This document shows, piece after piece, positions 25,057-29,174 of a stretch of DNA of 64,000 nucleotides; position 1 is the first letter of the stretch, and the number at the start of each line of letters is the position of its first letter. This stretch comes from Candidatus Poribacteria bacterium (GTDB lineage: Bacteria > Poribacteria > WGA-4E > WGA-3G). The translations under genes and the position numbers were made by a program. The notes beneath the pieces were generated by a model, which worked only from the letters and a program-made list of their open reading frames with translations, had not been told where the DNA came from and searched no databases. The stretch lies in assembly GCA_022827625.1 (NCBI GenBank), contig JAJEIE010000025.1, positions 62,001 through 126,000 of the forward strand. The letters are read 5' to 3'.

Positions 25057-27219
25057 CTATACTGTCTTGAGTTTTCGCCATAGGGTTGTACGACTGATAC
25101 CCAAACGTTGTGCAGCGAGTTGCGGCTTTCCATCAGATTCCTCCAAAACACGTTGGACTAACTCACGTTCCAATGCCGCAAGCGGGTTGCTTTCCCTGAG
25201 TGCTTTCGTAACAATATCGTCCCTCAACGCAATAAGGTCGAGCGGTAGATGTTGCTTTTCAATACTTCCACCCTGACATTTGACGAACGCGTGCTCTATG
25301 ATATTCTCCAACTCTCGTACATTGCCGGGGTAGGTATAATCCATTAAGATTTCAAGGGCATCGGGTAAGATGCGGTGAATAGATTTTTGTGTTTGTTGAC
25401 TGAATTTTTCGATGAAGTGTTCAATGAGGAGCGGGATGTCATCTCGTCTCTCACGGAGTGGTGGCGGCGTAATCGGGACGACGTTGAGCCTGTAGTATAA
25501 ATCCTCTCGGAAACGTCCGGCATCAATTTCTGTTTTTAAGATTCGGTTTGTCGCTGCAATGACGCGGACATCTACTTTTTTTGTCTCCGTCGAACCGACC
25601 ATCTCATATTCACCCTCTTGCAAGACGCGGAGCAACTTTGCTTGTGTTCCGGGACTTAACTCGCCGATTTCATCAAGAAAAAGCGTGCCGCTGTCCGCAG
25701 CTGCGAACCGTCCTTCGCGCGTTGCAATGGCATCCGTAAATGCACCTTTGACATGTCCAAAGAGTTCGCTCTCTAACAAATTATCAACCAAACCAGCGCA
25801 ATTGACGCGGATGAAGGGTTGTTTTGCCCGCTCGCTATTGTCGTGGATTGCCTGGGCGATCGGTTCCTTGCCAGTCCCGCTTTCGCCTTGAATCAGGACA
25901 GTCGTTTTCATGGGGGCGACGAGCTGAATCAACTCGAAAATCTCCTGCATTTTCCGATTTTTCCCGATGAGGTTCCCAAACGAATTGTGTTCCTTCAGTT
26001 TGGCATTGAGTGCCTTTACCTCCGAGAGATCACGGGCGAATCCTTGGATGAATTCCCTCCCGTCGTATGCAATGCGGATCGCGCGAATTTCCAATGGTAA
26101 GCGACTTTTGTTTTTACAGGACAGTTCGGTTTGGAAAGTAATAGGATTCTGTGGGGCGAGTCCTTTGAGTGTTTCGCAGGTGTTTTGAAATTTATCGGGA
26201 TGCATTAGGTCACGCAGCGACAGATTGACGAGTTCTTGATGTGTATAACCCAGCCATGTACAAAAATTTTCGTTTACGGTAACAAAAGCTTCTGTGAGTG
26301 AGGGACAAATGAAAATTGCGTCGTTGGACATCTCAAAAAGCGTGCGGTAGCGTCTGTTGTTTTCGGCGAGTTTGTCTGTCCAATTCCCTTTTTCGATCAG
26401 AATTGAGAGTTGTCCGGCAATAGGTTTCAGTCGTCTGATATGCGCCTCAGAGAATGCTCGGGGTTTTTCACTCGTAAAAAAGACGACCCCAATGGGTTTA
26501 CCCTGCACCTTGAGCGGAAGGGTCAGATTGGAGCGCATCCCTTCCTGGACCATCAATCTCGTCCAGTTTGTCGGTCTTTTTGCGAGAATTTCCTCGAAAT
26601 CGTCAATAATCCGGGCTTCACCTGAATTGAGAATGGGTTCAAGGCTGGACCCCTCGATTTTTGCTGAAAACCCGTTGTCCAGCAAGATTTTTTTGTTGGA
26701 TTTTGTTTTGCACTGCACTAAATTACCGGAAGATGTGTCAATGAGTGCGATGCCTAACCGATTATGGGGTACTATGTTCTGAAGTCCAGCGTGGATGTTC
26801 TCAAAGACTTCATCAAGTGTCTTGCCGAGTTGAATCTGCTCAAGGATTTCATAGATATGATCAGCTTCAACAGTTTGGTTAAAAATAGTATCTTCGAGTC
26901 TATCACGCATTGGTGCTTCAGGAGTGACTGCGATCTGAAGGGTATCTCCCTTAAGCCGGAGCGGATAGGTTCGGACATTCGGCGTGGTAATGGGACATCC
27001 ACTTTTCAGATCATATTGCCAACCGTGCCACGGACAGGTAACAACTTCACCCTCCAGTGTTCCTTCGTTGAGTGGCCCTCCCAGATGTGGACAGGCATTA
27101 TTGATAGCATAAAATCTTTTACCCGTGTTGAAGATTGCGATGCTTTTATTGTCTAATTTGATGACGATATTTTGTCCTGACTCAATTTCAGATGTTTGGG
27201 CGATGCTAATCCACTTCAC
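25057..27219 (-). CDS. Rieske-GAF-PAS sigma54-dependent activator with Fis-type HTH
   Basis: This is a 720-residue protein starting at GTG 27219, with GGAGG 9 nt before it. Domains in order: a Rieske-type [2Fe-2S] ferredoxin domain with C43-P-H45 and C62-P-W-H65; GAF (about 115-275); PAS (about 290-405); sigma54 AAA+ (about 415-655) with Walker A GESGTGKE, the sigma54-contact loop GAFTDA and Walker B TLFLDEIGE; then a Fis helix-turn-helix ending ISRTTLWRKLKTV. Such activators remodel sigma54 polymerase. The iron-sulfur domain suggests sensing of redox state, oxygen or NO, and the GAF/PAS a small ligand. I do not recognise this fusion as a named family. It is divergent from a sigma54 promoter at 27525. 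Confidence 0.9.
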   Translation of the reverse strand: MKWISIAQTSEIESGQNIVIKLDNKSIAIFNTGKRFYAINNACPHLGGPLNEGTLEGEVVTCPWHGWQYDLKSGCPITTPNVRTYPLRLKGDTLQIAVTPEAPMRDRLEDTIFNQTVEADHIYEILEQIQLGKTLDEVFENIHAGLQNIVPHNRLGIALIDTSSGNLVQCKTKSNKKILLDNGFSAKIEGSSLEPILNSGEARIIDDFEEILAKRPTNWTRLMVQEGMRSNLTLPLKVQGKPIGVVFFTSEKPRAFSEAHIRRLKPIAGQLSILIEKGNWTDKLAENNRRYRTLFEMSNDAIFICPSLTEAFVTVNENFCTWLGYTHQELVNLSLRDLMHPDKFQNTCETLKGLAPQNPITFQTELSCKNKSRLPLEIRAIRIAYDGREFIQGFARDLSEVKALNAKLKEHNSFGNLIGKNRKMQEIFELIQLVAPMKTTVLIQGESGTGKEPIAQAIHDNSERAKQPFIRVNCAGLVDNLLESELFGHVKGAFTDAIATREGRFAAADSGTLFLDEIGELSPGTQAKLLRVLQEGEYEMVGSTETKKVDVRVIAATNRILKTEIDAGRFREDLYYRLNVVPITPPPLRERRDDIPLLIEHFIEKFSQQTQKSIHRILPDALEILMDYTYPGNVRELENIIEHAFVKCQGGSIEKQHLPLDLIALRDDIVTKALRESNPLAALERELVQRVLEESDGKPQLAAQRLGISRTTLWRKLKTV

Positions 27220-27263: not shown

Positions 27264-27292
27264 AGATTATCATATAGTGAAGCGGATGTCAA
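27264..27292 (-). promoter_or_regulatory. Candidate sigma70-type promoter of the activator gene
   Basis: On the minus strand TTGACA (27292-27287) precedes TAATCT (27269-27264) by 17 bp. Start of transcription would be about 27257, leaving a leader of roughly 38 nt. The palindromes at 27301-27332 sit directly upstream, where they could also mediate autoregulation. Confidence 0.55.
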
Positions 27293-27300
27293 GAACTTTG

Positions 27301-27332
27301 TTTCATAAATGAAATTCGTTTCATTTATGAAA
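27301..27332. promoter_or_regulatory. Paired palindromic sites, candidate enhancer for sigma54 activator
   Basis: TTTCATAAATGAAA (27301-27314) and its exact reverse complement TTTCATTTATGAAA (27319-27332) are separated by TTCG. Each arm is itself nearly palindromic, so this is two adjacent dimer sites 18 bp apart centre to centre. They lie about 190-225 bp upstream of the sigma54 promoter, a usual enhancer distance. Confidence 0.65.
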
Positions 27333-27371
27333 TAAGCCTTCATTTTTTAACACTTACGCACTCCGCTGGTA

Positions 27372-27392
27372 GGTGTGGTTTGTAACCGCACC
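27372..27392. repeat. Inverted repeat in the sigma54 intergenic region
   Basis: GGTGTGGTT at 27372-27380 and AACCGCACC at 27384-27392 form 9-bp arms with one mismatch around TGT. It may be a dispersed hairpin element or a binding site; I cannot decide. Confidence 0.5.
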
Positions 27393-27434
27393 GGGCCCGT
27401 GATAGTAACCCTTTATACTGTCCGAAGATAGGCG

Positions 27435-27473
27435 TTTCAATTTTGAAATACGTAGGCAAAATCTGAAATTTCA
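27435..27473. promoter_or_regulatory. Further TTTCA/TGAAA palindromes near sigma54 promoter
   Basis: TTTCAATTTTGAAA at 27435-27448 resembles the two sites at 27301, and TGAAATTTCA at 27464-27473 is a perfect 10-bp palindrome of the same half-site. They are about 50-90 bp upstream of the sigma54 -24 box and could bind the same activator. Confidence 0.5.
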
Positions 27474-27524
27474 TTTTAGCCCGTAAAACGCTGATATATC
27501 TCAATTGGACAGATGCTGAACATT

Positions 27525-27540
27525 TGGCATGAAATTTGCA
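27525..27540 (+). promoter_or_regulatory. Sigma54 (-24/-12) promoter
   Basis: TGGCATGAAATTTGCA fits the RpoN consensus TGGCAyr-N4-TTGCw. The invariant GG (27526-27527) and GC (27538-27539) are separated by exactly 10 bp. The start site would be near 27551, 47 nt before the ATG of the M24-fold gene. It lies across the intergenic region from the sigma54 activator. Confidence 0.85.
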
Positions 27541-27597
27541 ATACTATGCTTTAATACGACCAGAGCAAGGTAACTATCCTAACAGGAGGAAATTACG

Positions 27598-28716
27598 ATG
27601 GTAAATAGAAAGAGGATTCAGAAAGCGCAGGACAGGATGAAGCAGCAAGGGATTGATGCCTATCTCATTCTGACGCACGACGATTATATCTACTTTTTCG
27701 GAGAGGATCGGTATCAACCGCGCGCCATTATCCCCGCACACGGGGTGCCAATTGTTGTCACTTTTGCTGGAGAAGAGGCAGAGGTTAAAGAATCATTGGG
27801 GGTCGAAGATGTCCGGATTTTCGGCTCTGTCGGTCAACAGATTAAGGACGTTGTTCAGGTGATGCGTGGTATGATAGGAGATAAGGAGAAACTCAAAATT
27901 GGGGTCCAGATGTGGTTCGGCACCCCTGCCTTCCTATTGAACATGTTCCAAAGAGCGAATCCGATTGTTGATGTCATGGACATCGCCCCGGTTATGGATG
28001 TCCTCCGTATGGTGAAAGATCACGCCGAGATAGCACTCATGCAGCGTGCCGCAGAAATTGCTGGCATCGGCATGGAGACGGCAGTCAAAACGCTTAGACC
28101 GGGTATAACGGAAAATGAGGTCGCAGCGGAAGTTGAGTACGCTATGCGGAAAGCCGGTGGACATGGTGTTGCAACGCCTGTGTTTGTGAATTCGGGAGTC
28201 CGTTCGGGATGGCTACACGGCACTGCTTCTGACAAAGTTATTGAGACGGGGGACCTGGTCGTGCTGGATTTGGTGCCGCGGTATAAAGGGTATTGCGCAA
28301 ATCTCTGTCGGACATTTGTGATTGGGACACCGACAGCGAAACAGATGGATATGTTCGAGACCTATAAAAGTGCCCAAGCCGCAGGGATCGCAGCGTTGAG
28401 ACCTGGGAGGAAGATGCGAGATATTGACGCAGCGGCAAAGAAAGTTTACACTGAAAACGGTTATGGTGAATTCTACGTCGCGGGGATCAGTCATAGCATC
28501 GGACTTAGTTTTGAGGAGACACCGGCACCAACGATCCATCCCGGTGATTCTGGTATCCAGATTTCTGACGGAATGACGGTGACCATCGGACATCCCGTAC
28601 TTTCTGTTCCGGGAACGGGAGGCGTGCGCTTGGAGGATACTTTCCATATTTCGGGGAGCGTTGCGAAGCCGTTGACGGCTTTCCCTGCCGAATTAGAATT
28701 GCCACTCGGATCGTGA
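27598..28716 (+). CDS. Creatinase/M24-fold hydrolase with altered metal site
   Basis: This 372-residue protein has an N-terminal creatinase-like domain (about 1-135) and a C-terminal pita-bread domain. Of the five M24 metal ligands, D224 (VVLDL), H299 (ISHSIG) and E346 (GVRLEDT) are present. N235 replaces the second Asp (ANLCRTF), and the Glu of the TIEP motif is replaced (TIGHP, about 331-332). It is therefore probably not an ordinary Xaa-Pro aminopeptidase; it may be a creatinase-like C-N hydrolase or another derivative. AGGAGGA precedes the ATG, and it is first in the sigma54-driven unit. Confidence 0.85.
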   Translation: MVNRKRIQKAQDRMKQQGIDAYLILTHDDYIYFFGEDRYQPRAIIPAHGVPIVVTFAGEEAEVKESLGVEDVRIFGSVGQQIKDVVQVMRGMIGDKEKLKIGVQMWFGTPAFLLNMFQRANPIVDVMDIAPVMDVLRMVKDHAEIALMQRAAEIAGIGMETAVKTLRPGITENEVAAEVEYAMRKAGGHGVATPVFVNSGVRSGWLHGTASDKVIETGDLVVLDLVPRYKGYCANLCRTFVIGTPTAKQMDMFETYKSAQAAGIAALRPGRKMRDIDAAAKKVYTENGYGEFYVAGISHSIGLSFEETPAPTIHPGDSGIQISDGMTVTIGHPVLSVPGTGGVRLEDTFHISGSVAKPLTAFPAELELPLGS

Positions 28717-28763: not shown

Positions 28764-29174
28764 ATGAGCCGTTATCTTGAACACGCCAATATGACCGTGA
28801 ACGACCTTGAAAAAGCGATCGATTTTCTAACAACTGCCTTTCCAGATTTTCGAGTCAGAGGCGGTGGCGATAATGCGAACGGAACGAAATGGTGTCATCT
28901 TGGGACTGACGATTTTTACATTGCATTGTCAGACCGCGAGCATCCCTTCACAGGGGACCGTAAGGGTACCTATGTGAACCATCTCGGTTTTGCTGTTGAT
29001 GACGCTGAAGGTATCAGAGAACGCTTGTTGGCTGCTGGATATAAGGAAGGTTTTAAAGTTGAACCGCATCCTTACCGAAAACGCCTCTATTTCATTGATG
29101 CAGACGGCTTTGAATGGGAGTTCGTCGAATACTTCACGGAGGATCCAGCGAAGCGGAACGATTATTCACAATAA
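28764..29174 (+). CDS. VOC-family (glyoxalase/dioxygenase-fold) protein
   Basis: This 136-residue protein consists of two beta-alpha-beta-beta-beta modules. Possible metal ligands are H7 in YLEHANMTV, H in VNHLGFAVDD and E in EWEFVEYF. VOC proteins include glyoxalase I, epimerases, extradiol dioxygenases and resistance proteins. AGGAGG lies 8 nt before the ATG. It is 47 nt after the M24-fold gene and likely co-transcribed from the sigma54 promoter, so it probably acts on the same substrate series. A strong bidirectional terminator follows. Confidence 0.85.
   Translation: MSRYLEHANMTVNDLEKAIDFLTTAFPDFRVRGGGDNANGTKWCHLGTDDFYIALSDREHPFTGDRKGTYVNHLGFAVDDAEGIRERLLAAGYKEGFKVEPHPYRKRLYFIDADGFEWEFVEYFTEDPAKRNDYSQ

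Follow-up and report, generated by a model that had tools for sequence, protein, structure and literature searches.

The window analyzed here, a 64,000-nucleotide stretch from the genome of a Candidatus Poribacteria bacterium, contains an intergenic region that separates the gene of a putative transcriptional activator from two genes on the opposite strand. The activator, a protein of 720 amino acids identified by its Pfam domains and its orthologues, is encoded on the negative strand (positions 25057 to 27219). On the positive strand, an AGGAGG motif at 27584-27589 precedes a gene for an M24 metallopeptidase of the creatinase/prolidase fold (27598 to 28716), assigned by Pfam and by PDB matches to Xaa-Pro dipeptidases. 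It is followed by a gene for a VOC-superfamily protein of 136 amino acids (28764 to 29174), assigned by Pfam, whose structural model (pLDDT of 84) folds like glyoxalase or methylmalonyl-CoA epimerase.

At positions 27525 to 27540 of the positive strand, the sequence TGGCATGAAATTTGCA provides the −24 and −12 elements of a candidate sigma54 promoter. The exact GG-N10-GC spacing that the first-pass annotation had reported for this element was borne out, and its TGGCA and TTGC are invariant in the alignment of all 15 same-genus loci. The pattern TGGCAY-N5-TTGCW matches once in the window, where 0.18 matches were expected, and 39 times genome-wide, compared with 12 matches for the reversed control. 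The genome also carries a single rpoN gene (one match, E value of 2.2e-58). By its consensus and spacing, and with rpoN encoded in the genome, the element fits the class of sigma54 (RpoN)-dependent promoters, and the transcription start is predicted at approximately position 27551. The activator gene has a putative sigma70 promoter of its own on the negative strand (27266 to 27292), composed of a −35 element TTGACA at 27287-27292, a 15-bp spacer, and GATAAT at 27266-27271. A simple sigma70 scan with spacers of 16 to 18 bp omits this promoter because its spacer is 15 bp; its TTGACA is nevertheless invariant in 15/15 same-genus loci, and the activator promoter in family f4 reads TTGACA-17/18-TATAAA.

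Three putative enhancer sites lie between the two promoters. Site 1 (GTTTCATAAATGAAA, 27300 to 27314), whose core TTTCATAAATGAAA at 27301-27314 is a perfect palindrome, has its center 15 bp upstream of the activator −35, at about −243 when counted from the predicted start of sigma54 transcription; its half-site columns are 99% conserved, compared with 84% for the remaining intergenic columns. Site 2 (GTTTCATTTATGAAA, 27318 to 27332; half-sites 97% conserved) likewise has a perfectly palindromic core, TTTCATTTATGAAA at 27319-27332, and is centered at about −225, 18 bp from the center of site 1, a spacing that is constant in the genus alignment. Site 3 (GTTTCAATTTTGAAA, 27434 to 27448) has the core TTTCAATTTTGAAA at 27435-27448, is centered at about −110, and takes the form GTTTCAGATTTGAAA in most relatives; its half-sites are invariant in all 15 loci. 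The sites are anchored differently. Site 3 and the sigma54 promoter are 90 to 92 bp apart, start to start, at every locus of the genus, whereas site 3 and the activator can be as little as 155 bp or as much as 387 bp apart. Sites 1 and 2, in contrast, keep a fixed distance to the activator −35 TTGACA and not to the sigma54 promoter, in agreement with the earlier remark that the two leftmost sites adjoin the promoter of the activator.

All sequences quoted in the first-pass annotation were found where it had placed them, but the number and form of the sites had to be corrected. TTTCAT-N2-ATGAAA had been put forward as the recognition unit, but its inner T and A are absent from site 3, and the putative unit is instead GTTTCA-N4-TGAAAC. 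Furthermore, three to four sites had been counted; three are conserved, whereas the proposed fourth, TGAAATTTCA (27464 to 27473), was rejected as an equivalent site, having reversed half-sites and poor conservation (exact in 5/15 aligned relatives). In the 5.0-Mb genome, TTTCATNNATGAAA occurs in two places only, both at this locus and 18 bp apart. Since the reversed control of this pattern also gives genome matches, single sites of this kind can be due to chance, but the tandem pair cannot. When two mismatches were allowed, TTTCATNNATGAAA showed no excess in the window (9 matches versus 5.6 in shuffles), and the case for the sites therefore rests on their clustering and conservation. The pattern GTTTCANNNNTGAAA is found in three copies at the locus and in seven scattered places elsewhere; a whole-genome comparison placed none of these seven near any of the 39 sigma54 matches, and thus revealed no wider regulon.

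Conservation was analyzed in an alignment of 15 same-genus intergenic regions, which comprised all the testable ones. The half-sites of the three palindromes exhibited a mean column conservation of 98.7% (0.987), compared with 84% (0.841) for the rest of the alignment, and the sigma54 core was conserved at 100%. The value for the half-sites was matched by none of 20,000 random column sets and by none of 253 circular shifts. It should be noted that the 15 loci are not independent, as they come from a closely related genus with a background conservation of 84%, and that the outgroups weigh most. We also searched 60 genomes, with a reversed control, for a palindrome separated by 60 to 90 bp from a sigma54 promoter. 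This search returned exactly one match in each of the 15 same-genus genomes, always at this locus, and in all 15 testable genomes the pair adjoins the same divergent activator. The only stray matches were one in G033 and one in G045, and the reversed control gave 0. The comparison of orthologous intergenic regions, which the first-pass annotation had proposed as a check, thus found both sites and spacing conserved in 15/15 loci. Collectively, phylogenetic footprinting confirmed that the intergenic element constitutes a real, evolutionarily conserved element with the predicted makeup of a sigma54 switch in these sponge bacteria.

Between sites 2 and 3, the window contains an inserted copy of a dispersed hairpin repeat (27344 to 27436, core GGTGTGGTTTGTAACCGCACC) with 16 matches in the genome, which widens the distance between these sites from about 58 to 116 bp. 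The repeat is missing from most relatives; a related copy occupies the same place in L007 (G023), L008 carries different DNA there, and the whole stretch is variable across the genus alignment. The repeat in the window extends as far as site 3, with the site retained as TTTCAATTTTGAAA in place of TTTCAGATTTGAAA. One reading of this junction might be a deletion that brought together two GTTTCA copies, one from the repeat and one from site 3.

The same arrangement was observed outside the genus. In G064, a member of another genus whose activator shares 77% identity over the N-terminal 401 amino acids, all three sites and the promoter are present; sites 2 and 3 are 286 bp apart, and site 3 lies at its usual distance of 91 bp from the promoter. 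In another family, f4, whose activators show 67 to 72% identity, the same half-site recurs in three sites, the two halves standing mostly 3 bp apart (GTTTCAAAYTGAAAC), and the promoter reads TGGCAYCAAAYTTGCC or closely resembles it. In G059 (56% identity), GTTTCATAATTGAAAC lies upstream of the activator, and an unlinked VOC gene on a different contig is preceded by GTTTCAATGGTGAAAC and TGGCACGACCGTTGCC, that is, by a site and a sigma54 promoter. Upstream of the most diverged activator, that of G057 (52% identity), we found no sites and no convincing sigma54 promoter. The distribution of the activator is patchy: a search of 85 genomes of the phylum found it in 26 genomes from 7 of 22 genera, and orthologues occur in 16/36 same-genus genomes, with two further remnants, as well as in other families.

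A complete local regulon of activator, enhancer sites, promoter, and target enzymes had been claimed for this locus. Conservation upheld the first three components, while the target had to be revised. The M24 gene at 27598 was considered as the conserved target and rejected as a lineage-specific insertion, because it is absent from the interval between promoter and VOC gene in most relatives; it occupies this position only in G000, G031, and the L120 record, and a remnant of it is found in G022. In most members of the genus, the VOC gene (at 28764 in the window) comes directly first after the promoter and is thus the predicted conserved target. All 16 genus genomes that encode the activator also have the VOC gene, as do 7 of the 20 that lack an intact activator; in those activator-less genomes with readable upstream DNA, the VOC gene has neither sites nor a sigma54 promoter. 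The pattern indicates that the activator, the sites, and the sigma54 promoter disappear jointly and that the VOC gene can remain. A decayed locus, L084 of G022, retains residues 389 to 720 of the activator and the 3′ end of the M24 gene alone before the VOC gene, the promoter being gone.

The gene served by the promoter in G044, G049, and G064 encodes a Rieske-domain protein 615 to 631 amino acids long, and in G049 the order is promoter, Rieske-domain protein, FMN reductase, and VOC. Nearly all members of the group have this Rieske-domain protein, and outside these three genomes its gene lacks the sites; in G000, the gene for the 615-amino-acid form lies elsewhere (C37), with neither sites nor promoter. 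A separate observation concerns the 615-amino-acid protein at L081:7692-9539, of which approximately 480 C-terminal residues match no Pfam family.

The activator comprises a Rieske [2Fe-2S] domain (residues 2 to 84), a GAF domain (133 to 276), a PAS domain (300 to 400), a sigma54-activating AAA+ domain (417 to 583; PF00158, E value of 1.1e-69), and a Fis-type helix-turn-helix (680 to 718; PF02954). Its AAA+ domain, its Fis-type helix-turn-helix, and the palindromes upstream of the promoter place it, as a predicted member, among the bacterial enhancer-binding proteins of the NtrC/NifA type. The recognition helix GISRTTLWR(K/R)L is common to the genus and family f4, and G049 has GVSRTTLWRKL. The loop that contacts sigma54 reads GAFTDA and departs from the canonical GAFTGA; GAFTDA is found in G064 and in all genus orthologues in which the loop is covered, whereas families f4 and f5 have GAFTGA or GAYTGA. 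The Rieske ligands are C43/H45 and C62/H65, and the motifs CPH and CPWH are invariant in the aligned Rieske-bearing orthologues. The activators of G012, G031, and G083 (L015, L016, L120, and L215) lack the Rieske domain and show a clean in-frame junction, VKWIN/TDQVY. On the tree, this loss requires two changes, both within the GAFTDA clade. In the Rieske-less loci that were read (L015, L016, and L120), promoter and sites are intact; as G012 and G031 keep them, the DNA side of the system does not depend on the Rieske domain.

Among the 79 loci found by scanning two peptide patterns, no fusion of a Rieske domain to a sigma54 activator occurred outside Poribacteria, and the literature searched by full-text terms yielded no description of Rieske-type sigma54 activators. 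In L134, L128, and L165 (Nitrospirota/Nitrospinota), an AAA+ activator homologue is encoded about 1.8 kb away from a Rieske gene, and the two seem to be separate genes. L085 (G048:C503) encodes an activator paralogue with a Rieske-like N terminus that is devoid of the ligand motifs, and no sites were found upstream of it.

We consider it very likely that these elements form a sigma54 regulon of a single operon, consisting of the activator, three sites, the promoter, and the VOC target. The activator would be expressed from the sigma70 promoter of its own gene and would bind the three GTTTCA-N4-TGAAAC sites through its Fis-type helix-turn-helix. Site 3, centered some 110 bp ahead of the start, is held in register with the sigma54 promoter, and the 18-bp tandem of sites 1 and 2 is tied to the activator promoter. 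The bound sites would scaffold an AAA+ hexamer that loops to the sigma54-RNA polymerase at 27525-27540, and ATP hydrolysis would then open the promoter and switch on the VOC gene, here with the M24 gene inserted ahead of it. The proximity of sites 1 and 2 to the activator −35 makes autoregulation, as suggested earlier, plausible. These sites lie at least 15 bp above the −35, a position from which bound activator would plausibly repress, and the autoregulation may well be negative.

Could the role of the palindromes be confined to the sigma70 promoter of the activator, as repressor or autoregulatory sites, with another activator driving the sigma54 promoter? The spacing of sites 1 and 2, set to the activator TTGACA and not to the sigma54 promoter, would suit such a division, and candidates for the second role are numerous, with 19 sigma54 activator matches in the genome. 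Nevertheless, site 3 holds its distance to the sigma54 promoter and not to the activator, the joint loss of activator, sites, and promoter binds the three together, and the unlinked VOC gene of G059 carries a site-promoter pair, so that this explanation is improbable. Far less probable still is a coincidence of chance palindromes with a chance sigma54-like sequence. The intergenic DNA is AT-rich, and matches with two mismatches are no commoner than in shuffles, but invariance over 15 species and the recurrence of the three-site plan in other genera and in another family refute this reading.

Another alternative, unlikely though less so than these, touches the signal only and holds that GAFTDA renders the activator largely constitutive in the genus, its level and autoregulation setting the switch in place of a Rieske or GAF signal. 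The fixation of GAFTDA in the covered genus orthologues and G064, against GAFTGA or GAYTGA in f4 and f5, speaks for it, as does the loss of the Rieske domain at least twice on the tree and in the GAFTDA clade only. In addition, the same change in NorR, the laboratory variant G266D (GAFTGA to GAFTDA), fully bypasses repression by the GAF domain (PMC2941729). On the other hand, GAFTDA is found in DVU2106 of Desulfovibrio with no sign of constitutive action and is listed as a variant compatible with activity (PMC4641369), suppressors in the GAF domain can restore repression, like the R81 variants of NorR, and the invariance of the Rieske ligands in most GAFTDA orthologues argues for their use. 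Within the single-operon regulon that we favor, the Rieske cluster may supply the input through its redox or oxygen state, together with ligands of the GAF and PAS domains; we regard the redox signal as possible, at somewhat below even chances. More tentatively still, these proteins could represent a hitherto undescribed class of Rieske-gated, redox- or oxygen-responsive sigma54 activators, so far seen in Poribacteria only, in which one clade with fixed GAFTDA is now shedding the Rieske domain and passing from sensor to constitutive activator. That the natural GAFTDA is tied to Rieske loss is put forward as a hypothesis, because the same loop also occurs in DVU2106, an ordinary activator.

In summary, the first-pass annotation observed a real feature and was right in its main reading, apart from how many sites there are and which gene is the target. 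The proposed regulon is fully delimited, with each element defined to the base, and can thus be rebuilt in a laboratory host. The natural variants, with or without the Rieske domain, with GAFTGA or GAFTDA, and with a 3- or 4-bp spacer, constitute a ready experiment that bears on how sensory domains restrain sigma54 activators and on whether a Rieske cluster can be a transcriptional sensor. The plan of the switch is ordinary for sigma54, and the Rieske-bearing activator appears to be an undescribed variant of it; the literature searched contained no sigma54 study of the uncultured phylum Poribacteria.

The system most resembles NorR/norVW of Escherichia coli, which likewise combines a divergent single-component sigma54 activator having GAF, AAA+, and Fis domains with a single sigma54 promoter preceded by three enhancer sites, and which uses iron-based sensing, a putative feature here. 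In NorR, the three sites scaffold the hexamer (PMC2941729). NorR senses NO by a mononuclear nonheme iron in its GAF domain, whereas the Poribacteria activator adds a Rieske [2Fe-2S] domain and a PAS domain, and further differs in its natural GAFTDA loop, its GTTTCA-N4-TGAAAC sites, and its VOC target. The orthology test for NorR failed (NCBIfam NF003451, 339.6 bits versus a cutoff of 476, matching the AAA+ and helix-turn-helix region only). Judged from its sequence, the Poribacteria activator is predicted to work like NorR but is not NorR. PrpR is also divergent from a single local operon, prpBCDE. In Salmonella, the PrpR enhancer CGTTTCATGAAACG is composed of the same half-site, GTTTCA/TGAAAC (PMC4987338). 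The PrpR half-sites have no spacer, in contrast to the 4 bp in Poribacteria (3 bp in f4); moreover, PrpR senses 2-methylcitrate via an unrelated N-terminal domain, its target differs, and orthology with it failed as well (TIGR02329, 283.6 bits versus a cutoff of 499, again over the AAA+ and helix-turn-helix region only). The single-operon activators described by comparative genomics in Clostridiales and Desulfovibrio belong to other phyla and have other sites and targets, and the main texts make no mention of Rieske domains (PMC6615313, PMC4641369). In Clostridiales, 65% of the activators control one operon, usually an adjacent one, from multiple sites located mostly 100 to 250 bp upstream (PMC6615313), and these activators thus share with the locus described here the same plan of one adjacent operon controlled from several sites.
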